Shown here piece by piece: positions 11,212 through 55,831 of a stretch of DNA of 64,000 nt (positions are counted from its first letter, which is position 1; every line of letters starts with the position of its first letter). A program made the translations under genes and the position numbers. Location: positions 16,051-80,050 of IMG/VR virus record IMGVR_UViG_3300025122_005335; one strand, written 5' to 3'. This DNA comes from a virus. Below the pieces are notes generated by a model. That model did not search any database and had not been told where the DNA came from. It was given only the letters and a program-made list of their open reading frames with translations.

Positions 11212-11502
11212 TTAATTTGTTGCTTCATATTGAGCTTTAATAACGTTATATACAGCTTTGGGTAGAACTTCTACAAAGTCTACTATTCCTTCTTTTAGAC
11301 CGCTTTCAAAATCGTTTTTAGGTACTTCTATTTTTTGATTATGGGGTATTGTTAAAAATATATGTTTTTCGGGGGTAGTAAGTATATAAGCGCAAAAATG
11401 ACCAGCATAATCACCATTTTTTATAGCATATAAATATCTAGGTTTGGGTTTTTTGGTATTTCTTATAATATTCGATAATTTCATTCCATTCATTCCTATC
11501 AT
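11212..11502 (-). CDS. Hypothetical protein, about 96 aa
   Basis: Unrecognised. A small alpha/beta protein with RYLYAIKNGDYAGHFCAYIL and KHIFLTIPHNQKIEVP. The first ATG (11502) gives 65 nt of overlap with the dehydratase gene; an in-frame ATG at 11484 (MKLSNIIRN) is an alternative. It is the last gene of the sugar-nucleotide operon. Confidence 0.65.
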   Translation of the reverse strand: MIGMNGMKLSNIIRNTKKPKPRYLYAIKNGDYAGHFCAYILTTPEKHIFLTIPHNQKIEVPKNDFESGLKEGIVDFVEVLPKAVYNVIKAQYEATN

Positions 11503-12379
11503 TTATACTTCTTTTTGCAGAAAACCCTAAGTCTTTTATTTTATTAAAATTTAATGCATATCTATAATCATGACCAGGTCTATCAGTAATGTATTTAATT
11601 TTAGCAGAAGTATCCGTATATTTAGCAATCATTTTTGCTATTTCATTGTTTGATATTTCTTCTCCTGTCCCGATATTGTAAACTTCTCCTGACTTTCCCT
11701 TTTCAGAAACTAATATAATACCTTCAGCATGATCTTCTGCATGTATCCATTCACGTACATTATTACCGTCACCGTAAATTGAAATTTCTTTATCGTTTAT
11801 TGCTGAAAAAATAGATTTTGGTAGTAACTTCTCTGCATGTTGACCTATTCCAAAATTATTACAACAACGGGTAACTCGAATATCCATTCCATATGTCTTA
11901 CAAAATGACAATGCAATCAAATCTGAGCTAGCTTTTGAAGCTGAATAGGGTGAATTTGGTTTTAAAGGTTCATTTTCGTCCCAACTTTCAAGATTACCCG
12001 TTAATGCACCGTATACTTCATCGGTGGATACATGAACTACTGGCTTGTTATATTGTTTTGCTAAGTTCAATACGTTCATTGTACCTATTATATTGGTATG
12101 GGCAAATATATTAGGGTCTGAAATGCTATTATCTACGTGAGATTCAGCTGCTAAGTGAAATATTTTGTCAAATTTATGAATTCTGAAGACACTTCCTAAC
12201 ATTTTCTCATCTAATATGTCACCCTTTATATTCCAGGTGTTTGGAACTGACTTTTTATCTACATACTCACACGCGTATGTTTGTTTGTCATAAACAATTG
12301 AATTATATCCTCTTTTTTTGAGGCTTCTTATTAGGTGACCACCAATAAACCCATAACCACCTGTAACTAAAACATTCAT
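11438..12379 (-). CDS. dTDP-glucose 4,6-dehydratase-like (RmlB family)
   Basis: Extended short-chain dehydrogenase making a 4-keto-6-deoxy sugar nucleotide. The NAD-binding GGYGFIGGHL is at residues 7-16. STDEVYG at 118-124 supplies the Asp-Glu pair typical of dehydratases. The catalytic Tyr145-x3-Lys149 lies in SPYSASKAS. At 313 residues it is slightly short. It overlaps the next sugar gene (12376) by 4 nt, so the two are coupled and probably act in one pathway, for modification of host surface or virion glycans. Confidence 0.88.
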   Translation of the reverse strand: MNVLVTGGYGFIGGHLIRSLKKRGYNSIVYDKQTYACEYVDKKSVPNTWNIKGDILDEKMLGSVFRIHKFDKIFHLAAESHVDNSISDPNIFAHTNIIGTMNVLNLAKQYNKPVVHVSTDEVYGALTGNLESWDENEPLKPNSPYSASKASSDLIALSFCKTYGMDIRVTRCCNNFGIGQHAEKLLPKSIFSAINDKEISIYGDGNNVREWIHAEDHAEGIILVSEKGKSGEVYNIGTGEEISNNEIAKMIAKYTDTSAKIKYITDRPGHDYRYALNFNKIKDLGFSAKRSINDRNEWNEIIEYYKKYQKTQT

Positions 12380-13389
12380 ATATCTTTATCACCTAATTGA
12401 ATAATGCTTTCTTCTTGTCCTTTTTTATCTGCTATGTAACTTTTAACGGTTTTATCTAAAAATTCTTTATCAACAGTTGTAAATTTGTGTAAGTTCAAAT
12501 CAGAAGCTATCTTATTTGACAAAATACAATTACTTCTTTTAGCTACTGTAATATTTTCTTTATAAAATTGTTCTTCAGAATAAAAAGTAATGTCATGTAA
12601 CTTCCAATCCTTAGGTAACAGATTATTTTCGATTAATTGTTCTTTATTGTCATCAAAAACTTCAAATAACTCTTTGGAACTAAAAGTACCGCTACTTACT
12701 ACGTTGTATATACCAAATGGTGGCGGTTGAATCAACATATTATAGACAAAATTGAACAAATCATACAAATATGTTAAACTATTTGGTTCAGTTAAGATTT
12801 TTTTATAGCCTAACATTTTTGAAATAACGTTTTTTGGGTGATATATTTCACCAAAAGGCATTCTTATACGCAAATTATAACAATTAAAGCTACTTGTTAA
12901 GCTTAATTCACCGGCATGTTTTGTTTTACTGTACCAAGATGAATCTGGTTCAAATAATCCAAAATTTGGTACAACTTCTTCATCATATCCAGATTTATCA
13001 TCATTATACCCCGTAAAAATACAACCCGAAGAAATATTAACAAATGAAGGTATATTATTTGCTTGAGCTGCTGAAGCTAACGTTGTAGGTAGTACTGAAT
13101 TTAAAAGCCACACTAGTTCTTTTTCTTTTTCTGCATCATCAACGTTTTTTTCTCCTGTATAACCAGAACAATTAATAATAGCATCAAAAGATGTGCCTTC
13201 GCTGTTATAATTAGTTAAAAAATCTAAGAATAAATTATAATCTCTATAATTTATTTGTTCGCTAGAAATTGCATGTACTTCAAAATTTTCGTCTGCAGCT
13301 AAAAAATTACTAAGTTGGGATCCAATAAATCCCTTTCCTACAATTAGTACTTTTGTAATCGGTGAATTTAATTCGGAATTTTCGCTCAT
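12376..13389 (-). CDS. NAD-dependent epimerase/reductase (RmlD-like)
   Basis: Short-chain dehydrogenase fold with GKGFIGSQL near the N-terminus and a YSKTK (Y-x3-K) catalytic motif. The order NISSGCIFTG then GYDEEVVPNFG resembles dTDP-4-dehydrorhamnose reductases. It is coupled to the RmlB-like gene, so the pair would convert an NDP-hexose to a deoxy-sugar donor. The exact product cannot be told from sequence. Confidence 0.75.
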   Translation of the reverse strand: MSENSELNSPITKVLIVGKGFIGSQLSNFLAADENFEVHAISSEQINYRDYNLFLDFLTNYNSEGTSFDAIINCSGYTGEKNVDDAEKEKELVWLLNSVLPTTLASAAQANNIPSFVNISSGCIFTGYNDDKSGYDEEVVPNFGLFEPDSSWYSKTKHAGELSLTSSFNCYNLRIRMPFGEIYHPKNVISKMLGYKKILTEPNSLTYLYDLFNFVYNMLIQPPPFGIYNVVSSGTFSSKELFEVFDDNKEQLIENNLLPKDWKLHDITFYSEEQFYKENITVAKRSNCILSNKIASDLNLHKFTTVDKEFLDKTVKSYIADKKGQEESIIQLGDKDI

Positions 13390-13430
13390 AAAGATATTTT
13401 AATATTAATCCTATTGAGTTCCACCTGATA

Positions 13431-14189
13431 TTACCAGTATGTGATATTTAAATGGTTTGCTATACCGTATATTGTAGTATGAACAGGTTTGTCTATTACT
13501 TTTCTTATATGTTCTAAGTGAGGAGAGCTAGTTTCTTCACTTGCTACAATATATCCATGTTGGCCTTTAGTAAAAACATTGTCGATATACCATTTTCTTA
13601 CATTGACGTTTAATTCATCCCAAGCAAAAGCAGAAATTACTAAATCATATTTGTCTTTTACTTCATCATCAACAGAAATATTATAATTACCTAGATATTT
13701 TTTAACTAATTTAATTACATTTGGGTGATCGTAGTCATAATATGATTTTATATCGCAATATTGACTTAATAATAAGAGCAACCCACCGTACCCTCCTCCG
13801 ATTTCAACAATACTTGTTGGTTTGCAATTTGATAATATGTCACCCACTTGTTTTAAATAGCGAAGCGTTGATGGATCAATTGAAATCTTTTCATTATTGT
13901 TTCTATTAAAAAAATTTCCTTTAAATTTACGAGATGAGCTAATAAATTCATCCCCTCCCAGCTTATCATTAATTAGATAACGGTTATCTTTTAATAATTC
14001 AGGATAATGTGTTTCTATATGACGTAAATATAAAGAACCCCTTTGTTTATCGACGTGACTTAAAATTGTTGTGTATTCACCTGAAATTTTAAATCTAGAA
14101 AACACTTTTTCATTTTCTGAAGCTTGTTTACATATGTCGTAATACAGTTTTGCTTCTCGTTCTTCTACTACCCAAACACGGTTACCCAT
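13431..14189 (-). CDS. Putative sugar O-methyltransferase
   Basis: A Rossmann-type SAM-binding motif (SIVEIGGGYGGLLLLL) lies in the middle of 252 residues, with DLVISAFAWDELN as the following acidic/catalytic strand. The long N-terminal part before the SAM motif is as in the putative sugar O-methyltransferase family. It is upstream of the RmlD/RmlB-like pair, so it may methylate the same sugar. TATAAT lies 6 nt before its ATG, but the -35 is poor. Confidence 0.75.
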   Translation of the reverse strand: MGNRVWVVEEREAKLYYDICKQASENEKVFSRFKISGEYTTILSHVDKQRGSLYLRHIETHYPELLKDNRYLINDKLGGDEFISSSRKFKGNFFNRNNNEKISIDPSTLRYLKQVGDILSNCKPTSIVEIGGGYGGLLLLLSQYCDIKSYYDYDHPNVIKLVKKYLGNYNISVDDEVKDKYDLVISAFAWDELNVNVRKWYIDNVFTKGQHGYIVASEETSSPHLEHIRKVIDKPVHTTIYGIANHLNITYW

Positions 14190-15633: not shown

Positions 15634-16119
15634 TTACTTTTTTTCTTGCAAAAGATTTGCAATTTTATTTACTTTAGCTTCTATGTCAGATAATCTGTTA
15701 AAAATATCTTGTGCAGTAGCAGAATTATCAAAATTAAATTCAAATTGATTTGGATCGTGTTGGGTGGTTTCAGCCACGGGTTGAGGTTGGTGTTGTTGGT
15801 GGGGTTGACCCATTTGGGGTTGCATTTGAGGATTACCCACCAAGTTTAGAATATCTCTATCCATCACCTCTTTGTTTATTTGTTTTGCTTTTAACCCTGA
15901 AGACTGTTCAATAATATTTGAGTTTACTTCATTAAGTTCATTATGCATTGCACCGAACATACCCCTAATGGCCATTGCATCCTCCATAGGATTACCCTGA
16001 GAGCTTTCGCTCTCAGGGTTATAATTTGGATCCAACCCAGCGCTATAATTTACATCTGTACGTTTCGGTTGAGCGTGCGGATCCGGACCTTGTCCTACAG
16101 GCTGTTGGGGTTGTTCCAT
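15634..16119 (-). CDS. Gln/Pro-rich hypothetical protein downstream of gp32
   Basis: Unrecognised. 161 residues of low complexity (HQQHQPQPVAETTQ) with a helical middle and a C-terminal coiled coil (DIFNRLSDIEAKVNKIANLL). The start overlaps the gp32 stop (TAATG), so it is translated with SSB and may act at forks. The message carries a perfect GNRA-capped hairpin early in the gene. Confidence 0.7.
   Translation of the reverse strand: MEQPQQPVGQGPDPHAQPKRTDVNYSAGLDPNYNPESESSQGNPMEDAMAIRGMFGAMHNELNEVNSNIIEQSSGLKAKQINKEVMDRDILNLVGNPQMQPQMGQPHQQHQPQPVAETTQHDPNQFEFNFDNSATAQDIFNRLSDIEAKVNKIANLLQEKK
15994..16019 (-). other. Coding-region RNA hairpin with GNRA loop
   Basis: As RNA from the minus strand, an 11-bp perfect stem ACCCTGAGAGC / GCTCTCAGGGT is capped by GAAA. 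It encodes PESESSQG and has no U-tract, so it is not an intrinsic terminator. A processing, stabilising or attenuating role between gp32 and its distal gene is possible. Confidence 0.7.
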
Positions 16120-20295: not shown

Positions 20296-20323
20296 AGTAT
20301 AGACTATATACTTGAATGATCAA
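20296..20323 (-). promoter_or_regulatory. Early promoter TTGATC-N16-TATACT of gp41
   Basis: On the minus strand the -35 is at 20323-20318 and the -10 at 20301-20296, 7 nt before the gp41 ATG. It overlaps the end of the upstream epimerase gene. Confidence 0.72.
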
Positions 20324-21386
20324 CAAGCGATTCTTGGTTGATTTGATCCCAAATCCAATCGTACGTCTGTTGTATGCCTTTAATAAGAGGATAGTGTGGT
20401 GACCAATCGAGTTTTTCTTGAATAAGTTTGTTGTCACTATTTCTGCCTCTTACTCCTAGTGGCCCTTCAATATATTTTCTACCTAATTTTTTACCGGCTA
20501 CGGTTTCTGCAGTTTCTACTAATGCGTTAATAGTCACCATTTCATCTGATCCTAAATTTACTGGACCTGACCAGTCTGACTCCATCAATTTTCTTATACC
20601 ATTAATACATTCATCTATATATAGAAAGGAACGTGTTTGTGTACCGTCACCCCATATTTCGATATCTTCGCCTTCTTTGGCTAACGCCACTTTTCTGCAA
20701 ATAGCAGCTGGAGCTTTTTCTCTACCACCTTTCCACGTACCTTTAGGACCATAAATGTTATGAAATCTAGCAATACGAACAGGTATATTGTAATTTCGTT
20801 CATATGCTAGATAGAGCCTTTCGGAAAATAACTTCTCCCAACCGTATTCGCTATCAGGTGCAGCAGGGTATGCTGAACTTTCTTCACAATTAGGATTATC
20901 AGCATCTAATTGATTGTGTTCAGGGTACATACATGCAGAACTGCTATAAAAAATCTTAGTTGTTACCTGTTCATATGGCATAACTCGAGAATCATTATAC
21001 CAGGGGGTTTTAACAAATTGGTTAAGCCGGTTGATTGCATCTAGGATATGTAAATTAATAGTTGCTGAGTTTCTCATAACGTTTGCATCATGCTCACCGG
21101 TAAAAATATACCCGGCACCACCCATATCAGCAGCTAGCTGATATATTTCATCAAATTGCCCTTGATATTGTTTCGGTACTGTACCATAATAGCTCCCTGT
21201 TCTAATACATCTTTCAACTATATCTTTTTCTGTTAAATCCCCTGTAATAAATTCATCGGCTTCTGATTTTCCGTAATCTGGGTGTTTAAGATCTACACCA
21301 CGTACCCAATAACCTTCTTTTTTAAGCCTACTTACAAGATGGTTACCAATAAACCCACCTGCTCCACATACTAAAGCTGTCTTCAT
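20304..21386 (-). CDS. Sugar-nucleotide epimerase, GDP-mannose 3,5-epimerase-like
   Basis: 360-residue extended SDR with CGAGGFIGNHL at 7-17, QLAADMGGAGYIFTGEH, FYSSSACMYPE and the YGWEK catalytic motif. The MGG-x-GYI and SSSACMYPE strings are characteristic of GDP-mannose 3,5-epimerases. It would supply an L-sugar donor (GDP-L-galactose or GDP-L-gulose) for glycan building. It has its own early promoter and sits alone between the methyltransferase-like gene and gp41. Confidence 0.85.
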   Translation of the reverse strand: MKTALVCGAGGFIGNHLVSRLKKEGYWVRGVDLKHPDYGKSEADEFITGDLTEKDIVERCIRTGSYYGTVPKQYQGQFDEIYQLAADMGGAGYIFTGEHDANVMRNSATINLHILDAINRLNQFVKTPWYNDSRVMPYEQVTTKIFYSSSACMYPEHNQLDADNPNCEESSAYPAAPDSEYGWEKLFSERLYLAYERNYNIPVRIARFHNIYGPKGTWKGGREKAPAAICRKVALAKEGEDIEIWGDGTQTRSFLYIDECINGIRKLMESDWSGPVNLGSDEMVTINALVETAETVAGKKLGRKYIEGPLGVRGRNSDNKLIQEKLDWSPHYPLIKGIQQTYDWIWDQINQESLVDHSSI

Positions 21387-21392
21387 ACAACT

Positions 21393-21420
21393 ATTATATT
21401 ATTTTAAATTTAGATATCAA
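21393..21420 (-). promoter_or_regulatory. Early promoter TTGATA-N16-TATAAT
   Basis: On the minus strand the -35 is at 21420-21415 and the -10 at 21398-21393, 6 nt before the epimerase ATG at 21386. The -35 overlaps the end of the upstream gene. Confidence 0.8.
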
Positions 21421-21980
21421 CTAAATTTTGTAGAAGCAATCATTACATGATCAGGAGTAGCAGTAGATATAAATTCAAATTTATAATCTGGGTTTATATC
21501 TTTTAATTTATTTTTAACAAGTGGTATTTCAGAAGCTCGTAGAAATGTTGGTATATCATCCATAATAATTGTACTTGTTTTATTTTTAAATAACGTTTTT
21601 ATAAGATCTAATTCTTCATTTAAAGGTATACCACCACCTTCGTCATGTGCATCGAGCCAAAAAGTAGCATCGGTATCAATTTTAGGTAGTAATTTTGTTA
21701 AAAATTGTACTGAACTACACTTATAAATCTCAACACACTCGGGTTTAACAATTTTATCATTATCAACCATTTCACTAATGAGATTGCTACAATAATCTAC
21801 CCTATATCCAAATATATCACATGAATAAAGTTTTGTATAACCAGCATTAATAGCGCTAGTTAAACCAATACCTTTGTGACACCCTGTCTCTATAAAAGTG
21901 TTGCTTTCAGATTTATATTTTTTAAAAAAATCAAATTGTTTTTTGTTATTATCCTCTAATGTTTCTCTATAATCGTTCAT
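21417..21980 (-). CDS. Class I methyltransferase-like protein
   Basis: The start at 21980 (MNDYRETLED) leaves 1 nt after the upstream stop; an ATG at 22016 would overlap it. SNTFIETGCHKGIGLTSA matches SAM motif I, and TFWLDAHDEGGG supplies the acidic downstream motif seen in FkbM/TylF-like O-methyltransferases. It is coupled to the class II amidotransferase gene. Substrate is unknown; a sugar or small metabolite is most likely. Confidence 0.68.
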   Translation of the reverse strand: MNDYRETLEDNNKKQFDFFKKYKSESNTFIETGCHKGIGLTSAINAGYTKLYSCDIFGYRVDYCSNLISEMVDNDKIVKPECVEIYKCSSVQFLTKLLPKIDTDATFWLDAHDEGGGIPLNEELDLIKTLFKNKTSTIIMDDIPTFLRASEIPLVKNKLKDINPDYKFEFISTATPDHVMIASTKFS

Positions 21981-21981
21981 A

Positions 21982-22656
21982 TTAATTAAAAATTGCAAAG
22001 GGGTTACTATCTTCAAATTTTACTATTTCAATAACCCCATATCCTGGATTATGTTTACTAGCATATCTTTCAAAGAACATTTGATATGCCCACCCATCAA
22101 GTAGTGGTTTGCTACCTTCAAATTGTACAGATGAAAATGTGTCTCCTTTTGTAAATAATGTACTGCCGTTTTTGGTTAAAAAAAGCTTACTATTTTCTTC
22201 ATCCCATACCCAACATGCATGAGTCCCCTTAAATGCTGAAAATGTTTCATAAAATATTTCATGATCTTCTTCAGGTGGAATCGGTAATAGGTCTAATTGT
22301 TCCATATATGCTGCTATATATGAACTATCTACTTCTTTGGTATCTGTTGATTCTACCACTTCTGTATAATTCGTAAGAACCCCATTGTGAGCAACATACC
22401 ACCTACCATAATGAAATGGATGTGAAGTATTTTCACTATATTTTCTAACTGAGTTAGTTGGAGCTTGATCATGTGCAAGATAATAATCCCAATCTTCTTG
22501 ATATAGTAAGTCTAAATCTACTAATTTGTTTTTAAAAACAAATATATCATGATTTTTTATACCGCAAAAGCTGAAAGCAAACCCACCTCGATCTTTATTG
22601 AGTTCATATAATTTAATAAATTCTTCTCGAGATGCTGTACCATAAATTGCGCACAT
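21982..22656 (-). CDS. Class II glutamine amidotransferase, stand-alone
   Basis: 224 residues starting MCAIYG, so Cys2 would be the N-terminal nucleophile after Met removal. KDRGGFAFSFCG and AHNGVLTNYTE are the Ntn-hydrolase glutaminase motifs. No synthase domain is attached, so the ammonia acceptor must be on another protein. Possible partners are the phage QueC (archaeosine-type chemistry, as in Gat-QueC fusions) or an amino-sugar pathway. It has an early promoter that interleaves with an opposing late promoter. Confidence 0.82.
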   Translation of the reverse strand: MCAIYGTASREEFIKLYELNKDRGGFAFSFCGIKNHDIFVFKNKLVDLDLLYQEDWDYYLAHDQAPTNSVRKYSENTSHPFHYGRWYVAHNGVLTNYTEVVESTDTKEVDSSYIAAYMEQLDLLPIPPEEDHEIFYETFSAFKGTHACWVWDEENSKLFLTKNGSTLFTKGDTFSSVQFEGSKPLLDGWAYQMFFERYASKHNPGYGVIEIVKFEDSNPFAIFN

Positions 22657-22664
22657 ATGTTTAT

Positions 22665-22692
22665 ATTATATAGTATTGAATAAATATTTCAA
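22665..22692 (-). promoter_or_regulatory. Early promoter TTGAAA-N16-TATAAT of amidotransferase
   Basis: On the minus strand the -35 is at 22692-22687 and the -10 at 22670-22665, 8 nt before the ATG at 22656. Its spacer contains the plus-strand late box at 22680-22686. Confidence 0.82.
22680..22686 (+). promoter_or_regulatory. Late promoter box (GAATAAATA) inside an early promoter
   Basis: The box ends 7 nt before the ATG at 22694 and lies entirely in the spacer of the opposing early promoter. Early and late polymerases cannot bind both at once. Confidence 0.72.
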
Positions 22693-22693
22693 T

Positions 22694-23245
22694 ATGAAAG
22701 ATCAGGATACCCAATTTCTTTATGAATCTTATCAAAAAACAATAATAGAAGGTCGGAAAAAACAATTTACAGATAGGGTAAGAAAAACCTTGGTAGATCC
22801 GGATACTGGTGAAGAAAGAAAAGAGTCTTATTATGAAATGATGATGAGGATAAAGGGTATCCGAGGTGGTGGTGGAGCAAGAAGTAGAGCTACTAGATTC
22901 AAAAAAGCAGTATCTAAAGATAAAGTTGCTTTAGGAAAACGTAAATTTAAGGTTGCAGACAAGGCTTACGAAACACCATTAAAAGGTTTACAAAAAAATG
23001 TAGTAAGTTTTGTAGAGATTAGGCCCTCTACTGCAAAAGAAATTTTAGATTTTTTATCAAAAATAGAAGATAAAAAAGAAGCAGAGAGAGTTCTAAAAGA
23101 TATGATCTTAGACGGGTTTTTAGATGAAGTTTTTAAAGATGAAGAAGCCCCAGAACCTGAAGTGGATCCTGATAAATTAGGTGAAATTGAAGCGTTTCAT
23201 GATCCTGCTGGCCCTGAAGCCGTTGATGATTTAGAAGATTATTGA
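22694..23245 (+). CDS. Late protein with capsid-targeting-like leader, isolated among early genes
   Basis: The start is ATG 22694; an upstream ATG at 22676 precedes the late box and would not be transcribed from it. The leader MKDQDTQFLYESYQK is nearly the same as MKNKDTQLIWEAYDK of the unrelated protein at 50249-50986, and L-Y-E-S fits a gp21-type cut. A basic, Gly/Arg-rich part (RGGGGARSRATRFKKA) precedes a helical domain (IRPSTAKEILDFLSKIEDK) and an acidic tail. Probably a DNA-binding virion protein. Confidence 0.78.
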   Translation: MKDQDTQFLYESYQKTIIEGRKKQFTDRVRKTLVDPDTGEERKESYYEMMMRIKGIRGGGGARSRATRFKKAVSKDKVALGKRKFKVADKAYETPLKGLQKNVVSFVEIRPSTAKEILDFLSKIEDKKEAERVLKDMILDGFLDEVFKDEEAPEPEVDPDKLGEIEAFHDPAGPEAVDDLEDY

Positions 23246-23889
23246 AAAAATTCCATATTGTGTTCTTTAGCATCTGGCATATCGTTATATCGGCCTTCAT
23301 ATTCAAAATTACACTCTAAATCAATATTACTTGCAAATAATGTTCCTGGGTTTATAGTGGGCCAGGTGTCGTAAACAAATTCAAAGTTTTTATTTACAAA
23401 ATCTAAGAGCCAAGGTTTAAATCTATGCATATGCTCACTATCATGTAATATTATACAATCACATCTACCCGCCGATTCTTTAACCCAATTAGCTCTATTA
23501 TCATAACCACCTGTATCAACAAAAATTAAATCGTAAAAACTTTCTATTTTTTTATAGTATGGTGTACCTTTAACAAAAATACTTTGAGTTTCTAAAGTAA
23601 TTTTATAATTTTCATTTTCATATTTTTTCTTCATATTGTCATACCAATATGCTGGTGGGCTATTAAAATACTCAATACCCCAAACTTTTGCTTTACCGTT
23701 TTTTGTTAGATAACAAAAATAACTACTGCTACCATCACCGGTTCCACATTCTAAAATATTAAGTTTTTGATTGTTTTTATTTTTATATAAAAATTCTACA
23801 ATATACTTTAAAAAGGGTATATGAGAAGAATATGCAGTATTGTTTGCATAACCGGTTTTTGATAATTCTTCTTTGTTAAAAACATGCAT
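23239..23889 (-). CDS. Class I SAM-dependent methyltransferase
   Basis: 216 residues with LNILECGTGDGSSSYFCYL (SAM motif I), VWGIEYFN (acidic motif II) and DLIFVDTGG (motif IV position), then CDCIILHDSEHMHR. The pattern suits small-molecule or sugar O-methyltransferases of the Methyltransf_24 type. Its ATG shares bases with the QueC stop, so the two are coupled. Whether it methylates a glycan or a base-modification intermediate is open. Confidence 0.78.
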   Translation of the reverse strand: MHVFNKEELSKTGYANNTAYSSHIPFLKYIVEFLYKNKNNQKLNILECGTGDGSSSYFCYLTKNGKAKVWGIEYFNSPPAYWYDNMKKKYENENYKITLETQSIFVKGTPYYKKIESFYDLIFVDTGGYDNRANWVKESAGRCDCIILHDSEHMHRFKPWLLDFVNKNFEFVYDTWPTINPGTLFASNIDLECNFEYEGRYNDMPDAKEHNMEFFQ

Positions 23890-24683
23890 TAAGGGCCCCT
23901 AGTGCCTTCTCTACTTAAAAACACTTCTTCTGGGAAAGGGACACATTTGTTTTGTTTCCAAAATTCTGTTAAATCTTGGTTATATGGTTGAGGGTCAATA
24001 TAACCTGCATCGGCAAACCCTTTAATTCTTAAACTACTGCTTGGGGTTGATGCATCAGCAATTTCGTCACCACTATAACAGGTGTATGTATATTTGTAAT
24101 CAACTTTACTTGATGCTCCATACTCTACAATTGCTTTTTTGTCCATTGCTAAAAGAGGACACATAAGTTTGATTTGTTCTTTTCTATTCAAATCGATTAA
24201 TGCTTGAAATTGCTCCCTAAATTGTTCACTACCATCCCAATAACCAGCAAGACTATCTACTTGAGTTGCTCCATGATATACGGTATCGGCACCAATTGAT
24301 TCAGCATGTGCACATGCAATAGATAAAAATATTTGATTTCTAAATGGAACATAACTTACTGGTTGTGCTTCACCTATCATATCTTTTACATCTGGATTTT
24401 CTATTTCTTCATTAGTTAGTGAACTGGTTGTTATTAGTTCTTTCAAAAAGGTTACATCTATAATTTTATGATATATTTTTGTATCTTCAAAATTATGACT
24501 AAAACTTACCAGTTTAGCATGTTCAATTTGAATTTTAGCACATTCTATTTCACGTTTATGACGTTGGCCATAATCGAAAGTAATGCAATGTAATTCTCCT
24601 GAATTAAATTGAGCCATTCTTAGCATTGCAGCACTATCCATACCACCACTAAAAATCATTACACTTTTGTTTTTGTTAGACAT
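23889..24683 (-). CDS. queC: 7-cyano-7-deazaguanine synthase (QueC) with altered zinc site
   Basis: Converts CDG to preQ0 using ATP and ammonia. The PP-loop FSGGMDSAAML is at residues 11-21, VPFRNQIFLSIA near 112-123, and RIKGFADAGYIDPQPYNQ is the conserved C-terminus. Cellular QueC binds zinc with four Cys; here only C202 (TCYSGDE) remains, and the expected C-x2-C-x2-C stretch reads as Ala/Ser/Thr/Pro. It lies between the carbamoyltransferase and a methyltransferase. Either the site is dispensable in this lineage or the enzyme has shifted function. Confidence 0.9.
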   Translation of the reverse strand: MSNKNKSVMIFSGGMDSAAMLRMAQFNSGELHCITFDYGQRHKREIECAKIQIEHAKLVSFSHNFEDTKIYHKIIDVTFLKELITTSSLTNEEIENPDVKDMIGEAQPVSYVPFRNQIFLSIACAHAESIGADTVYHGATQVDSLAGYWDGSEQFREQFQALIDLNRKEQIKLMCPLLAMDKKAIVEYGASSKVDYKYTYTCYSGDEIADASTPSSSLRIKGFADAGYIDPQPYNQDLTEFWKQNKCVPFPEEVFLSREGTRGP

Positions 24684-24701
24684 AACTATATGATATAATA
24701 G

Positions 24702-26306
24702 TTACCAATGTTTACCATAATAAAAATCTTCAATTATGAGATAATCCATTTGCGTTGATTCTAACACTTTAACAGCATCAGAAATTGTATTTAGAATAGG
24801 TTTACCGGCAATGTTAAATGAAGTATTCAATAACACCCCATGACCGGCATGTTTATTAAATTGAGTTAACAAATCATATAGCCATTCATTTTGTTCTCTT
24901 GTTACTGTTTGTACTCTGGCAGTACCATCTATATGTGTGATGGAAGATAATTTTTTTCTCCACTCTTTTTTTACTTTAGGACAATAAAGCATGTGTTTGG
25001 ATTCCTCTTCCCATTCAAAATATTTGGATACATCTTCTAATCTTACAACAGGTGCAAATGGCCTGTACCATTCTCTATTTTTAACTTTAAAATTTAAAAT
25101 ATCTTTCATTTCAGGAAAAGCCGGGTTACAAAAAATAGATCTGTTACCTAATGCTCTTGGCCCGTGTTCACATCTCCCTCTTGCGCAACCAAAAATTTTC
25201 CCGTTTGCTAATTCAGATGCTATAATACTAAGATCAACAGGTTTTGCAGAGTTACTTTCTATCCAAGCTGGGTAAGTGTTTATATCTAATAGTTCAGTAC
25301 CACCGTAAGTTATATCTATTGGGGTCGCCGGTTTATTAAACCCGGCTAATAACCCTAAAGCAATACCACAATCATTAGTATTAGGAGCAACAAAACTTGG
25401 TCTTTCAGGAAACATTTCTTTTATTTTTGTAGCAAGTAGAATATTAAGTCCACACCCACCTGTTATAATAATAGGTAAATCTTTATACTTTTCGATGTAA
25501 GGCATAGCTACTTCGAAAAAACAATCTTCGAAAGCTTGTTGTGATGTTGCTGCTACGTCCCAGCTAATTTCCTTTTCTAAACGTTTATTATCATCAAAAA
25601 CTAAATTACAATTTTTCCCAATTATATCGGTTAATTTTCTAACGTAGTCTTCACCGTCTGGTTTTGCATAATAAAATTCTTTAAAATAAGGTAACCAGTC
25701 TTTTCTTACTTTACCGTAATTACAAAGACCCATAATTTTACCACTATAAACTAAATTACCATCTGATATCCATTCTTGTTTAATATCTGGACAATAGTGA
25801 GCAAAACACATATATGGGAAACCGAAATCATGATCATAGTTATGACGGTCTGCAGGGTTGGTTTTATCTAAATAGCTTACACCGTCTTTTCTATCAGCTG
25901 TAAAAATATTAAAAAAGCCATCATTACCACCACCATCAAAACTAAAAATTATTGCTTTTGAAAAATTAGATTGATAAAATGACCCACTAGCGTGTGCATG
26001 GTGATGCCAGCCTTCTAAAACATTTTTAGCAGGTATAAAATCTTTATAGCTGTAAGTTATATCATTATGCACACACTCTGTATTGATGTGTAATAGATTA
26101 TCAAAAGGTGGTTCGTACCCTAATTCTTTTTCAATATATTGCAATATTGCATAGACAGCTTCTTCTCTATTTGCTAGAGGTTTATATTGAGCTAACCCAA
26201 TATTTTTTATGTTAAAAAATCGTTCAAATTCTATAACATAATATTCGCCGTTATCTTCAAGTACAATTGCTCCGTTATGCGAACCATAAATCGCAATATT
26301 AGCCAT
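24702..26306 (-). CDS. Carbamoyltransferase (NodU/TobZ/CmcH family)
   Basis: 534 residues. The N-terminal Kae1-like part has HHHAHASGSFYQS (metal-binding His), IFSFDGGGNDG (ATP site) and IITGGCGLNILLATK. The C-terminal YrdC-like part has KIFGCARGRCEHGPRALGNRS, a family hallmark, and LNTSFNIAGKPI near the end. These enzymes transfer a carbamoyl group from carbamoyl phosphate to hydroxyls of sugars or natural products. Acceptor unknown: surface sugar, or modified nucleoside given the QueC gene next to it. Co-directional with uvsX, 7 nt apart. Confidence 0.93.
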   Translation of the reverse strand: MANIAIYGSHNGAIVLEDNGEYYVIEFERFFNIKNIGLAQYKPLANREEAVYAILQYIEKELGYEPPFDNLLHINTECVHNDITYSYKDFIPAKNVLEGWHHHAHASGSFYQSNFSKAIIFSFDGGGNDGFFNIFTADRKDGVSYLDKTNPADRHNYDHDFGFPYMCFAHYCPDIKQEWISDGNLVYSGKIMGLCNYGKVRKDWLPYFKEFYYAKPDGEDYVRKLTDIIGKNCNLVFDDNKRLEKEISWDVAATSQQAFEDCFFEVAMPYIEKYKDLPIIITGGCGLNILLATKIKEMFPERPSFVAPNTNDCGIALGLLAGFNKPATPIDITYGGTELLDINTYPAWIESNSAKPVDLSIIASELANGKIFGCARGRCEHGPRALGNRSIFCNPAFPEMKDILNFKVKNREWYRPFAPVVRLEDVSKYFEWEEESKHMLYCPKVKKEWRKKLSSITHIDGTARVQTVTREQNEWLYDLLTQFNKHAGHGVLLNTSFNIAGKPILNTISDAVKVLESTQMDYLIIEDFYYGKHW

Positions 26307-40530: not shown

Positions 40531-40996
40531 TATATTAATAATAAGGCTCTTGGGAGACTCCCAGTAATTATTCAGGTAACTCTTCTTTGGACAAATTACC
40601 ACCAAATTGTTCATATTCTGGTGTGGTAATATCGATATTGTCTTTTGCTAACATTTTTTTAAAATAATCAATGTATAATCTATCAAATAACCCCCATCTC
40701 ACAAGTTCTACGTATTGAATTAACGGTGAATCAGTTTGATCTTCTTCTCTAGTTAAAAATGTACCACCTTTACCTTGTCTACAAGCAACGTAATTCCATT
40801 TTTTAGAATATTTCCTTAAGTCTTCATCTGTTTCTAATACCCACCCAGAAAAATCACCCTCTTTACTCTTTAAAAGTTCGATAAATCTATCTTTATTCCA
40901 TATTGCTGCTTGAAGAGAGTTCCGATATTCGTTATTATTAGATATTCTCCCAAAATTTGTATTATTAATAGGGCCTTCGGAGACTCCCAATAATGG
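40531..40996. repeat. Pair of imperfect about 35-nt repeats
   Basis: About 40531-40566 (between genes) and 40960-40996 (inside the glycosyltransferase-like gene) share GGAGACTCCCA-TAAT with similar flanks. In the gene it encodes PLLGVSEGPINN; just after the gene's stop the other copy would read LLGVSQEPYY. The outer copy also folds as a short hairpin, without a U-tract. Confidence 0.45.
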
Positions 40997-41392
40997 TAAG
41001 TCAGGCCCTGGCATTGATACACAACGCATTTTTGTTATATCGTTCCTTTCCATGTAGTTTAGTGCATGGTAAAAGTTATTTGATTCTACAGGATTAACTA
41101 TTATTTGGTCTTCCACCATGAATAACACATATTTTGTTGTAATTTTCTTTAACCCTTCTAAGACCATGGGCTTAAAATGGGTGGCATTTTCATCCCATTC
41201 AACGTTTGTAACAACGCAGTTTACGTTTTTGCTTTTAAAGTTTTGCTTGTTGCTTATTGTATACACTTCATATGGGCATTTCCAATTTTTCTTGTGGTAA
41301 AAGTCCCATATCTTAAGAATAGGTTGGTAAGTATCAGAACTTAATACTAAAATAGAACAATCAAAGTTGGGTTTCATATAAGCATAGTTCAT
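40568..41392 (-). CDS. Putative glycosyltransferase
   Basis: 274 residues. CSILVLSSDTYQPILKIWDF, KYVLFMVEDQIIVNP (a D-x-D-like acidic pair), and QAAIWNKDRFIELLKSKEGD followed by SGWVLE fit GT-A-like enzymes common in marine phages. It is last in an operon UvsY, KdsC-like, nucleotidyltransferase, this gene, and overlaps the previous gene by 32 nt from the first ATG; ATG 41377 (MKPNFDC) is an alternative start. Confidence 0.68.
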   Translation of the reverse strand: MNYAYMKPNFDCSILVLSSDTYQPILKIWDFYHKKNWKCPYEVYTISNKQNFKSKNVNCVVTNVEWDENATHFKPMVLEGLKKITTKYVLFMVEDQIIVNPVESNNFYHALNYMERNDITKMRCVSMPGPDLPLLGVSEGPINNTNFGRISNNNEYRNSLQAAIWNKDRFIELLKSKEGDFSGWVLETDEDLRKYSKKWNYVACRQGKGGTFLTREEDQTDSPLIQYVELVRWGLFDRLYIDYFKKMLAKDNIDITTPEYEQFGGNLSKEELPE

Positions 41393-42092
41393 CTAGGCTT
41401 CCTACAACATGTTGTTTTTCATGTTGTTTAAATTTATAGTCATATATTATATATTGTCTATCTAACAAATCATTATACGTTAAAGATACATATATTTCAT
41501 CTTCACCCACACTATTTGGCCATGTATATCCTTTTTTTCTTGCATTAATGAAAGAACTAAAAAATAAATCGGGTGATTTCCAATAATGTGTACCGATGAG
41601 ACCGTGGTTTGATATAACTTGCTTTTCTGTAAAGTTGGTTGCAATAGATTGTTGGGTGGTTGCAATGTAACTATAGTGTGGATCACATGTGTTGACTGTT
41701 ATAACTGCTCCATCCGGGTCTTTTTCTTTTAAAAATTTTAAAAATCTTTCGGGTTCCCAATCTAATATTTGGTCTACGTTTGTTTGTAGTAGTGGTTTTG
41801 AATCATCTATAAATCCTTTTATTTTATATAGTGTTTCTGCAGGGCCACTAGTTACTTCATCTATAATTTGTATTTTAGCATCGGGACAAAAGTCAGTTAT
41901 ATGGTTATATGCACCGTATTTTTCTTCGTGTTCCTTTAATACAATAAAATAATACGTTCCTGGTAACCCAATACTTTCGTAAGCTCTTTGGACCATTGAT
42001 TTACCTTGTATATCTATAAAAGGTTTGGGGGTATCGATTCCTACTTCTTTAAAAGCTGAACTTTTACCAGCCATAGGTATAACAATGTTCAT
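41361..42092 (-). CDS. Sugar-phosphate nucleotidyltransferase
   Basis: The start is ATG 42092 (MNIVIPMAGKSSAF), 1 nt after the upstream stop; a longer frame upstream overlaps the neighbour and lacks homologous sequence. The N-terminal PMAGKSSAFKEVGIDTPKPF is the nucleotide-binding G-x-G-x-R/K...PK signature of NTP_transferases, and LLQTNVDQILDW holds the metal-binding Asp. It should make an NDP-sugar for the neighbouring glycosyltransferase. It pairs with the KdsC-like phosphatase. Confidence 0.85.
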   Translation of the reverse strand: MNIVIPMAGKSSAFKEVGIDTPKPFIDIQGKSMVQRAYESIGLPGTYYFIVLKEHEEKYGAYNHITDFCPDAKIQIIDEVTSGPAETLYKIKGFIDDSKPLLQTNVDQILDWEPERFLKFLKEKDPDGAVITVNTCDPHYSYIATTQQSIATNFTEKQVISNHGLIGTHYWKSPDLFFSSFINARKKGYTWPNSVGEDEIYVSLTYNDLLDRQYIIYDYKFKQHEKQHVVGSLDELCLYETQL

Positions 42093-42093
42093 T

Positions 42094-42576
42094 TTATGAT
42101 TTAATAGTGTTTTTAATATATTCAAATAGGTGAGCTGCAACACCACCACCACCGTTTACAGGTAAGACACAAGAAATTTTTTGTATTTCGGATATCGCAT
42201 CTTTAGGACAAAAAGCATAACCAACTTCTTTCATAATATCTAAGTCTTGTATATCATCTCCTACAAAAGCCACGTCTTGTTTAGGTGTATTATACTCAAA
42301 ACATATGTCATTGAGTTTGGTTACTTTGTTTTCACCGTTTCTGTGTACAACATTAAGCATTTCAAATTTCCTTCTTTTAGCAAATCCTGGATTTATGTCT
42401 AAACTTCCTGTAAACAAGGCTACTTTAATTGAAAGTTCATTATAAAAGCGTCTTAATGCTGTAATATCTTTTTGATTATATCTTTTCCACAGTACTTCTC
42501 CTTCTTGGTTATATGCTGCGGTACCATCTGTTAATACCCCATCAATATCAAATAAAATTAGTCTTAAGTCGTTCAT
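42094..42576 (-). CDS. KdsC-like HAD phosphatase
   Basis: 160 residues. LILFDIDGVLTDG has the catalytic D-x-D, ALFTGS is motif II, GENKVTKLNDIC motif III, and VAFVGDDIQDLDIM motif IV; PVNGGGGVAAHLFEYI closes the protein as in KDO-8-phosphate phosphatase. No cap domain is present, matching subclass C0 tetramers. Together with the nucleotidyltransferase it suggests an activated acidic or seven/eight-carbon sugar. Overlaps UvsY by 4 nt. Confidence 0.87.
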   Translation of the reverse strand: MNDLRLILFDIDGVLTDGTAAYNQEGEVLWKRYNQKDITALRRFYNELSIKVALFTGSLDINPGFAKRRKFEMLNVVHRNGENKVTKLNDICFEYNTPKQDVAFVGDDIQDLDIMKEVGYAFCPKDAISEIQKISCVLPVNGGGGVAAHLFEYIKNTIKS

Positions 42577-52052: not shown

Positions 52053-52076
52053 AAAAGGGCTTACTTACGTAAACCC
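52051..52076 (-). terminator. Intrinsic terminator of the outer-membrane protein gene
   Basis: On the minus strand GGG-TTTAC-GTAA-GTAAGCCC forms a stem with one mismatch, followed by six T. It is downstream of the 52100-52783 gene. The stem is weaker than the other terminators. Confidence 0.6.
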
Positions 52077-52099
52077 CTGACTCCCTAATTTTATTCTTA

Positions 52100-52783
52100 T
52101 TAGAAAGAATATCTAACGCCGACTCCAACTGACCAACCATCTTCGTCTCCGAATGGCGAATCGTCACTATTAAGATAATACGTGTTTACATATGGATCCC
52201 AATCTCCCCATTCGAGGTTAAGGGTACCACCGAACTTTTGATAATCGTAATTATCCATAGCACCGAACTCTACATACGGAGTAAGGCTTAACCAATCCCC
52301 GATAAGATCAAATGATTTACCGGTTATATCAACAGTAACACCTTGATAATCAAGGTCATTATTATCCCAAAGTGTCAGACCAACATCTGCCCATTTACCA
52401 ACAACGGGTAAACTTTCAAATGTTACTCCTACACCATACTCTGTACTATCGATTGCAGCATTGTGATGTTGTAGTTCTACAGAAGCTTCAAAAGAAAAAG
52501 CTCCGGCGTCGACACCGCGTCTAAGCCCTAAAACGGTATGGTTGACACTGTCACCCCCACCTAACCTAGGAACGTTGTGAACCCCACCAAAAGCATATGC
52601 CCAGTCTAAATTCAATCCCCCAACAACACCAATACCAAGTGCATCATCGGAATAATTTAAACCACGAACATGGTGTTCAGTAGCGTATTGTACTTCACCA
52701 ACAACGCTTAAGTCGCCAGCATTAGTGTTCTGCATGGTAATACCAGCAGCCATCATAATAGAAAAAAGTAATGTTTTCCTCAT
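52100..52783 (-). CDS. Phage-encoded outer-membrane beta-barrel protein
   Basis: 227 residues. The N-terminus MRKTLLFSIMMAAGITMQ is a Sec signal peptide with an A-x-A-like site at TNA before GDLSV. The mature part alternates polar and apolar residues in amphipathic strands with Gly/Asn/Asp turns and ends GVGVRYSF, the C-terminal aromatic needed for BAM-mediated assembly. It resembles small Gram-negative porin-like proteins rather than any phage virion protein. A late-type box lies 10 nt upstream. Insertion in the host outer membrane is likely; purpose unknown. Confidence 0.85.
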   Translation of the reverse strand: MRKTLLFSIMMAAGITMQNTNAGDLSVVGEVQYATEHHVRGLNYSDDALGIGVVGGLNLDWAYAFGGVHNVPRLGGGDSVNHTVLGLRRGVDAGAFSFEASVELQHHNAAIDSTEYGVGVTFESLPVVGKWADVGLTLWDNNDLDYQGVTVDITGKSFDLIGDWLSLTPYVEFGAMDNYDYQKFGGTLNLEWGDWDPYVNTYYLNSDDSPFGDEDGWSVGVGVRYSF

Positions 52784-52793
52784 ATATTGTCAT

Positions 52794-52800
52794 TATTTAT
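52794..52800 (-). promoter_or_regulatory. Late promoter box (TAATAAATA)
   Basis: On the minus strand the box ends 10 nt before the ATG at 52783, giving a leader of about 4 nt. Confidence 0.5.
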
Positions 52801-52853
52801 TAGTTCCTTTAAAAGTTAAACTAGATATGTCTTCAGAACTATCAACTGTGATT

Positions 52854-52861
52854 GATAAATA
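52854..52861 (+). promoter_or_regulatory. Late promoter box (GATAAATA)
   Basis: The box ends 23 nt before the ATG at 52885. It shows that the small histone-like gene starts at 52885 and not at the upstream TTG, which overlaps the box. Confidence 0.6.
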
Positions 52862-52884
52862 ATAAAAAACATATATATACTCTT

Positions 52885-53070
52885 ATGGATACACAAAAAC
52901 AAGAAATTTTAGATACGGTTGCTTCATATATTAAAAACGTTGATCTTTATGTAGAGAAGAACAATAAATCTGCTTCAACTAGAGCTCGTAAAGCATTAGC
53001 TGATCTTGTTAAATTGGCAAGGGATGAACGTAAAAGTATATTAGAGGCAAGAAAAAGTAATGTTAAGTAA
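52885..53070 (+). CDS. Small histone H1-like (Hc1-like) protein
   Basis: 61 residues starting MDTQKQEILDTVASYIK. KSASTRARKALADLVKLARD matches the core of Hc1/H1-like bacterial histone proteins, which also appear in T4-like phages. It is basic and helical and should bind DNA non-specifically. The stop overlaps the start of the protease-like gene by 11 nt. Late box 23 nt upstream. Confidence 0.78.
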   Translation: MDTQKQEILDTVASYIKNVDLYVEKNNKSASTRARKALADLVKLARDERKSILEARKSNVK

Positions 53071-53509
53071 TTTTTCTAATATATATAGACAGTATATTAT
53101 CAATGAAATTAATGTTGATGAAGATGATATAGTTGGTTTAGTAGAACGCATTTATATTGATGGTATAGGTGATGTAGATGCAAAAATAGATTCTGGTAAT
53201 GGTGCATATAATGTAATACACGGGGATGTATTACGTAAAAGGGGTGATAATATAATTGTAAAAACCGTTAACGGTGTAAAATTAAAAAAGAAAGTTGTTG
53301 ATAAAGTTGTCATTCATATAGGATCAGGGAATAAAGAAGTAAGACCTGTTGTAAATTTTGATATAAAATTAGGTGATGAAGAATATAAAGACATACCTTT
53401 TTCTATTGCAAATAGAAGTGAAAATGAATATGGTATTTTAGTTGGTAAACAATTTCTTTCAAAAATAGATAAACTTATAGATGTTGATAAAGAGTTTGAA
53501 CAAGACTAA
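53060..53509 (+). CDS. Retropepsin-like aspartic protease with capsid-targeting-like leader
   Basis: 149 residues. The leader MLSNFSNIYRQYIINEINVD has I-N-E. VDAKIDSGNGAYNVIHGDVL holds the D-S-G catalytic loop, and ANRSENEYGILVGKQFLSKI is the closing strand-turn typical of the RimB/zinc-protease-like retropepsins (PF05618). One D-S-G per chain implies a homodimer. Substrate could be virion or host proteins. T4 uses an unrelated serine protease (gp21) for its head, so this is an extra enzyme. Confidence 0.78.
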   Translation: MLSNFSNIYRQYIINEINVDEDDIVGLVERIYIDGIGDVDAKIDSGNGAYNVIHGDVLRKRGDNIIVKTVNGVKLKKKVVDKVVIHIGSGNKEVRPVVNFDIKLGDEEYKDIPFSIANRSENEYGILVGKQFLSKIDKLIDVDKEFEQD

Positions 53510-54855: not shown

Positions 54856-55194
54856 GTGAAGACGTACCCTGTTGGTGCAACCGTTGAAATTGATAAACTC
54901 TTAAGTAACAAGTTGAGAGACATATATGGTGCATCGCTTAGATTACAGTTAGATGATTCATTCCCCGGCTCTTCTTTAAATGACCCTCTAGAAGCAACGT
55001 TATTACAGGAACCTAAACTACACCCTCAAGATAAAATATGGGTATATAAAGCGAATATTACAGGTACAAATATAGACATACCTTTACGTCAAGATGAATT
55101 TGATGTAGTAAGTTTAACTGAAAATTTATATACAGGTTACCACAAACAAATTAAATTACCTTCATTTAAAAGCTATGTTGAATTTTTTACATAG
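54856..55194 (+). CDS. Hypothetical late protein, 112 aa
   Basis: Unrecognised, from GTG. MKTYPVGATVEIDKLL followed by VYKANITGTNIDIPLRQDEF suggests a small beta-barrel. It shows no leader. The stop overlaps the convergent folE gene by 8 nt. Single-gene late transcript. Confidence 0.68.
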   Translation: MKTYPVGATVEIDKLLSNKLRDIYGASLRLQLDDSFPGSSLNDPLEATLLQEPKLHPQDKIWVYKANITGTNIDIPLRQDEFDVVSLTENLYTGYHKQIKLPSFKSYVEFFT

Positions 55195-55831
55195 TTTGTA
55201 CGAAGTGATAAAACTCAGCTCTTGTTTTTTCATCATCATAAAACGAGCCACTTAGTTTTGATGTTTTCATCATACAACCATCGTGTTTTACACCCCTTAA
55301 ACAAGCACATGTATGTGTTGCACTAATTACTACAGCAACACCAGCATTCTTTTCACATATATCATTAATTGCACTATGTATTTGAATTGTTAACCCTTCT
55401 TGAATTTGAGGTCTTCTTGCATAATACTCTACAATGCGATTAAGTTTACTTAAACCAATAACTCTACCTTCTAAACTAGGAATATAAGCAACGTGTGCTT
55501 GACCCGTAAAAGGTAAATGATGATGACTGCAAAGACTTTTAACAGGAATACCACCTTGAAAAACAATACCATCATATCCATCTGATGGAAATGAAGTTAT
55601 TCTTGGTGGTTGTGAATAACACCCAACGGCCATATCATTAACAAATGCTTTTGCAACTCTCATTGGTGTGTTGTCGCTATTCGCATCATTTCTCCAATCA
55701 AAACCTAAAGCATCCAAATAAGCTTCATATGCTTTTGATGCTTTATTAATAATAGTTTGTTTTTCTTCTTCGGTTCTAGGAGATGAACTATTAGCTTTTG
55801 GTAATAAAAATTCTTTTACTCTATCAGACAT
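55187..55831 (-). CDS. folE: GTP cyclohydrolase I (FolE)
   Basis: First step to 7-deazaguanines: GTP to dihydroneopterin triphosphate. KSLCSHHHLPFTG supplies zinc Cys and His, GLSKLNRIVEYYARRPQIQE is the family signature, and THTCACLRGVKH gives the second zinc Cys. Length of 214 is typical. With two QueD, QueE and QueC in this window, preQ0 rather than folate is the likely product. Early promoter TTGAAT-N16-TATAAT 8 nt upstream. Confidence 0.95.
   Translation of the reverse strand: MSDRVKEFLLPKANSSSPRTEEEKQTIINKASKAYEAYLDALGFDWRNDANSDNTPMRVAKAFVNDMAVGCYSQPPRITSFPSDGYDGIVFQGGIPVKSLCSHHHLPFTGQAHVAYIPSLEGRVIGLSKLNRIVEYYARRPQIQEGLTIQIHSAINDICEKNAGVAVVISATHTCACLRGVKHDGCMMKTSKLSGSFYDDEKTRAEFYHFVQTM

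Follow-up and report, generated by a model that had tools for sequence, protein, structure and literature searches.

Outer-membrane pores encoded by viruses have been described before. An OmpL-like porin is reported from marine viruses of oxygen-minimum zones (PMC8115048) and, like the gene treated here, is an outer-membrane porin gene with a predicted barrel on uncultivated marine virus contigs. That porin is reportedly linked to amtB-glnK and traced to Flavobacteriales, whereas the present gene is solitary, with a promoter box and a terminator to itself. In the databases, Caulobacter phages (CcrSC, C1) and Acinetobacter phage AB1I1M-1 encode porins of the TorF/Gcw_chp family (PF09694). CcrSC gp344, noted as 'Conserved hypothetical protein 2001', matches the Gcw_chp Pfam family at 1.3e-19, and the AB1I1M-1 protein does so at 7.3e-16; the open-access literature that we searched yielded no paper on Gcw_chp or TorF-family proteins in phages, and none that uses the term 'phage-encoded porin'. 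Predicted phage barrels also fill the list of BFVD viral models matching our own; among the best are a protein that Aeromonas phage phiAS5 carries under the name 'Outer membrane protein' and several from uncultured Caudovirales. The initial annotation of this DNA had called the hallmarks of cellular outer-membrane proteins rare in lytic phages, which is too strong, since phage outer-membrane barrels, TorF porins included, are already in databases and in print.

The known phage TorF genes have neighbourhoods that differ from that of the present gene: a UTP-glucose-1-phosphate uridylyltransferase in AB1I1M-1, and PnuC with a ribosylnicotinamide kinase in CcrSC (L090). In the latter phage the porin directly precedes the PnuC-like transporter and the kinase, and the three may form a two-membrane uptake set for nicotinamide riboside. 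Gcw_chp records under the name 'Acinetobacter phage MD-2021a' were rejected as a phage precedent, because they look like contigs of a host chromosome (catB, catM, ilvD). A further point of comparison is provided by the 12-stranded oligosaccharide porins KdgM and NanC, in which basic residues line the pore to accommodate acidic sugars.

The virus and its probable barrel gene

The window, that is, the whole stretch of DNA analysed, comprises 64,000 nucleotides (positions 16,051 to 80,050) of the 80,050-base IMG/VR virus record IMGVR_UViG_3300025122_005335. The record encodes T4-type replication and packaging proteins, namely a terminase large subunit, ssDNA-binding protein, clamp, DnaB-like helicase, UvsX-like recombinase and DNA polymerase, as well as an SbcC-like subunit, a helicase and a GTP cyclohydrolase. 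Sinorhizobium phage phiM9 and Pelagibacter phage HTVC008M are among the top matches listed for the terminase (36-37% identity), and for a 15-kb stretch the phage collection contained nothing close at the DNA level. The virus is a T4-like phage for which environmental DNA is the sole source.

The gene of interest is an intact open reading frame for 227 residues, ATG to TAA, at 52100..52783 on the minus strand, flanked by a convergent 69-aa ORF on one side and a divergent gene for a histone-like Hc1 protein on the other. A Sec signal peptide fits the N-terminus, MRKTLLFSIMMAAGITMQNTNA/GD, both by eye and in a crude rule-based scan; it would span codons 1-22 (52718..52783, minus strand), with predicted cleavage after NTNA and with a basic start, a hydrophobic core and an Ala at -1 that are all common to the homologues. 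The same rule picked out seven candidates in the window, and only this protein also has an aromatic end, its C-terminus reading ...GVGVRYSF. Both features proposed in the initial annotation are borne out by the homologues, in that the signal-peptide pattern is kept in all eight sequences and the terminal phenylalanine, F227, is invariant in them.

Relatives of the gene were found in ten IMG/VR contigs at 59-100% identity, one copy being identical, one 93% and eight 59-61%, and the eight distinct proteins make up the alignment (A4). The five pairs for which dN/dS was computed (NG86) gave 0.038/0.267, 0.308/1.593, 0.163/1.096, 0.023/0.074 and 0.058/0.562. Because dN lies well below dS in every one of them, the reading frame is more than a chance ORF and is under purifying selection.

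Used as a query, the window protein matched no protein family at E<=10 in Pfam, PHROGs or NCBIfam; over the eight homologues, NCBIfam gave no match and the only hints in Pfam were KdgM (E 0.061 in one of eight) and Dicty_CAD (0.17 in two of eight). Searches of phage, plasmid and bacterial genome collections turned up no homologue. The eight tblastn matches to phages at E<=10 were dismissed as chance (E no better than 0.1, identities of 21-30%, at most 50% of the query covered), as were two plasmid matches at E 2, and a single sequence match among solved structures (E 0.55) led nowhere; a search of solved structures with the alignment gave no match. By these sequence searches the family is new to the databases consulted, while virus-made outer-membrane pores as such are already known.

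The initial annotation had also raised the possibility that the gene is a captured fragment of a host porin. The predicted barrel is complete with 12 strands, both end hallmarks are present, the gene is under purifying selection, and the collections searched yielded no cellular homologue; recent capture from a host is therefore not supported. A search with the barrel protein of bacterial genome contigs found no homologue, and 148 sampled genomes from the phylum of Phaeodactylibacter luteus (G006, locus L010) yielded none at E<=0.01, a search that ran without a positive control. One of seven genomes reached through the loci gave a match, which at E 0.43 is at chance level.

Predicted fold and probable distant kinship

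Given the eight-sequence alignment, AlphaFold2 returned a best model (pLDDT 69.2, pTM 0.67) with a signal helix followed by 12 long strands at residues 23-34, 48-58, 63-73, 79-93, 96-108, 112-122, 132-141, 146-155, 165-176, 179-190, 195-209 and 212-226, the mature barrel occupying 52103..52717 on the minus strand and ending at Phe227. The other four models were poorer (pLDDT 50, 30, 28 and 27), and a model from the single sequence was discarded (mean pLDDT 38.8). The strands are antiparallel and even in number, as closure of a barrel demands, with 12 counted in this one of five models, which also superposes over whole barrels. As to the amphipathic strands of the initial annotation, the alternation of residues along them is equalled by 150 of 2000 shuffles and reaches a z of 0.9-2.0 over the eight homologues, which is not significant. 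For this reason the barrel assignment is based on the alignment-driven fold prediction, by which the protein very probably forms a barrel of 12 strands in the host outer membrane. The outer-membrane beta-barrel of the initial annotation is thus well supported.

Superposition with VIA-align ranked KdgM first (Z 19.7, 166 of its 170 residues aligned at 2.0 A), followed by NanC (Z 18.8), NalP, EstA, VhGalP (Z 17.8) and FapF, and the copper transporter PcoB still superposed at Z 14.5; KdgM, NanC and VhGalP are monomeric porins. With so many barrels scoring well, the comparisons made with the model point to a 12-strand barrel in general and to no particular kinship. A KdgM/NanC-like fold is thus what the model contains, but a shared fold is not proof of common descent: identity to KdgM and NanC is only 8-11%, the KdgM family (PF06178) stays below its Pfam cut-off, and the mature phage proteins are strongly acidic (net charge -20 to -24), in contrast to the basic pore lining of KdgM and NanC.

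A link to the TorF/Gcw_chp porins was suspected because of a motif, TEHxVRGLNYSxD, which aligns with SxYxFRGxxQT of TorF. TorF proteins taken from plasmid and phage records served for profile-profile comparison, in which E fell from 0.046 (two phage rows) to 3.2e-5 (six phage rows against 12 of TorF) and, over the full length, to 2.9e-6 (eight against 25); the 25-row profile retained L168 ('Acinetobacter phage MD-2021a') and left out L102, which had been in the 12-row set. Since aligned signal peptides add to such full-length scores, the mature part was compared alone. Against the 25 rows it gave P 9.6e-4 over 150 collinear columns with a probability of 22%, whereas the match to the first 12-row set was weak (P 0.012 and 0.029). 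None of 300 plain and none of 300 parity-preserving column shuffles reached the mature score; 4 of 30 rotations did, but these four keep most of the matched block intact and were not counted as negative.

As single queries, most phage proteins score about as low against TorF as the E. coli controls, but over longer collinear stretches, the controls ompF, ompA, nanC, ompW and elfC giving short or off-register matches only, and just two phage sequences (L115, L116) stand out. True TorF members reach scores far beyond these (E 1e-19 to 1e-47). Given this gap, and the fact that ompF, ompA or nanC of E. coli match TorF as well as most of the phage sequences do singly, we regard the barrel protein as probably a very divergent relative of the TorF/Gcw_chp porins as judged from sequence, and not as a member. 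The two groups have in common a Sec signal, a similar length (213-329 aa in the 25-row set), a terminal Phe in many proteins, a profile match over 150 collinear mature columns with the N-terminal RG motif, and the existence of phage-borne copies. They differ in that the present family lies below the reporting limits of Pfam and NCBIfam and has no significant pairwise similarity to TorF. PF09694 did not reach its gathering cut-off in any of the eight homologues and matched nowhere in the 80-kb record, and no credible solved relative of TorF was found among solved structures. A scan for PF09694 of 96 small genomes from the phylum of G001 also returned nothing and was judged irrelevant.

Conservation, expression and proposed role

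The pattern of conservation within the barrel is informative as to its role. With both ends taken as periplasmic, the usual porin topology, the invariant positions across the eight sequences number 20 of 29 in the extracellular loops, 45 of 70 in the outer strand halves, 28 of 77 in the inner halves and 5 of 28 in the periplasmic turns; these counts come from few lineages and are not independent events. In host porins the surface loops are usually the most variable part. Here, under the assumed topology, the cell-surface end would be the most conserved part of the barrel, which is unusual. Because this end is the most conserved and the protein is strongly acidic, the sequences favour a defined mouth or a site for a ligand over a captured porin fragment in decay.

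Such constraint at the surface might also be expected if the barrel served superinfection exclusion, blocking or mimicking a receptor so that progeny and competitors fail to adsorb to infected cells and debris. The surface location implied by the predicted fold and an apparently late expression could be fitted to this role as well. Receptor-contact surfaces, however, usually diversify, and the loops of this family hardly change between sequences of 59-61% overall identity; they are, moreover, very short in the model (2-13 residues), and expression late in infection would be late for exclusion. We regard exclusion as a live rival of low probability and favour an effect on permeability.

The evidence for late expression is a promoter-type box, AATAAATA, at 52794..52801 on the minus strand (read 52801-52794), 18 nt upstream of the ATG. 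It is found 16-18 nt upstream of the start and is identical in nine of nine upstream regions compared, amid divergent flanking DNA, so that the late-type box of the initial annotation stands. Across the window, 10 of the 23 NATAAATA sites sit 9-30 nt upstream of a possible start codon, as do 2.9% of positions in a control unmatched for A+T content; because the total of 23 is below the block-shuffle mean of 66, A+T richness does not by itself account for the motif. At the other end of the gene, the terminator claimed for it is confirmed as an intrinsic hairpin (52055..52078, minus strand) that begins 21 nt beyond the stop codon, with a stem of 10 pairs at 52078-52055 and a T run after it. The hairpin is kept in relatives, its 8-bp stem surviving a compensatory pair change (GGGCTTGC/GCAAGCCC in L114 versus GGGTTTAC/GTAAGCCC in the window).

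A late-type box is also what would be expected of virion genes, which would fit a virion or periplasmic component that merely resembles an outer-membrane barrel. Against such a component stand the N-terminal signal and terminal Phe of all eight sequences, the porin-like predicted fold and the TorF-like profile, and we hold this explanation to be very improbable.

The reading that we prefer, with a probability of about 0.55, is that the gene encodes a late-made, 12-stranded, porin-type outer-membrane barrel of a T4-like phage, which alters permeability. Transcription would start late from the AATAAATA box, as the motif suggests, and the product would be exported by Sec with loss of its first 22 residues. 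From what is typical of this protein class, the host BAM machinery would then insert the barrel by way of its C-terminal ...YSF strand. Conservation and charge together point to a narrow, acidic, probably cation-preferring pore with a functionally constrained mouth at the cell surface, and pore function of the predicted barrel is moderately supported. The likely effect would be a changed outer-membrane permeability of the infected cell, serving the passage of small solutes or cations or the osmotic balance ahead of lysis. This would add an unannotated family to the virus-made outer-membrane pores and, if the pore is real, would imply that some T4-like phages remodel the outer barrier of their host late in infection. 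An intact gene that brings a promoter box and a terminator of its own should lend itself readily to a test of function, and the conserved outer mouth offers a specific site at which to probe it.

Neighbouring genes and the wider window

In eight of the ten contigs, namely the eight more distant ones, the barrel gene is divergently adjoined by a gene for a small, one-helix MscS-like protein, roughly 130 residues long and built on an MscS beta-domain (PF00924; for example L110:5155-5547, L115:5545-5937 and L117:5562-5966, minus strand). Six loci (L110, L112, L115-L118) have in addition a convergent gene for a His-rich protein with a lipobox-like start, LTGC or FTGC (L110:6356-6652, L115:6745-7053, L117:6746-7036, minus strand). 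These His-rich proteins might bind metal. MscS-like genes of this kind occur in 37 viral loci and fall into two groups about 50% identical to each other; the four or five proteins scanned, drawn from both groups, all pass the PF00924 cut-off.

This neighbourhood raises the question of whether the barrel, the MscS-like inner-membrane protein and the His-rich lipoprotein form one envelope cassette that serves turgor control or egress by venting solutes or weakening the envelope ahead of lysis. The recurrent divergent MscS-like gene and the convergent lipobox gene would fit such a cassette, but adjacency is not interaction: the 80-kb record of the window has no match to the MscS-like gene and no His-rich lipoprotein gene beside the barrel, and a further 29 viral loci carry an MscS-like gene with no barrel homologue in the flanks examined. 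We accordingly rate the cassette as doubtful. Slightly more speculative still is a late-expressed kit of three parts, in which the acidic pore of the outer membrane, the MscS-like protein as a minimal one-helix channel of the inner membrane and the His-rich lipoprotein would jointly set ion or solute flow across both membranes of the infected cell; were it true, it would amount to a viral trans-envelope vent, which we did not find described in the literature searched. Viral channels of mechanosensitive type are on record for large DNA viruses (PMC6163359) and for gp51 of the Antarctic phage PANV1 (PMC9239159), and the MscS-like neighbour bears on a question raised by the former, namely whether such channels function and contribute to the replication of the virus.

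In the four of these 29 loci that were inspected, the MscS-like gene, of the second group, follows long genes that by eye resemble tail-fibre genes, a position for which a holin-like role might be considered. A crude scan for ORFs with a signal peptide and an aromatic end near the second-group genes found none in any of the 29 loci.

In the window itself, the divergent neighbour of the barrel gene is the Hc1 gene (histone H1-like; 52852-53070, plus strand; PF07432, E 8e-13), probably starting at the ATG at 52885 and conserved as a 60-aa gene in relatives. It is directly followed by a gene for a retropepsin/zinc-protease-like protein (53060-53509, plus strand; PF05618, E 1.2e-8), likewise conserved in relatives. 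Further along lies a phage GTP cyclohydrolase I gene (55187-55831, minus strand), for which the nearest genome-contig matches (L008, L009) are 59% identical; these are in metagenome-assembled genomes, and the contigs may be mis-binned phage DNA. Three regions (11438-14189, 20304-26306 and 40568-42576) contain, by eye, many epimerase-, carbamoyltransferase-, sugar-nucleotide- and HAD-like genes, and these clusters suggest a phage-encoded modification of surface sugars or of DNA.
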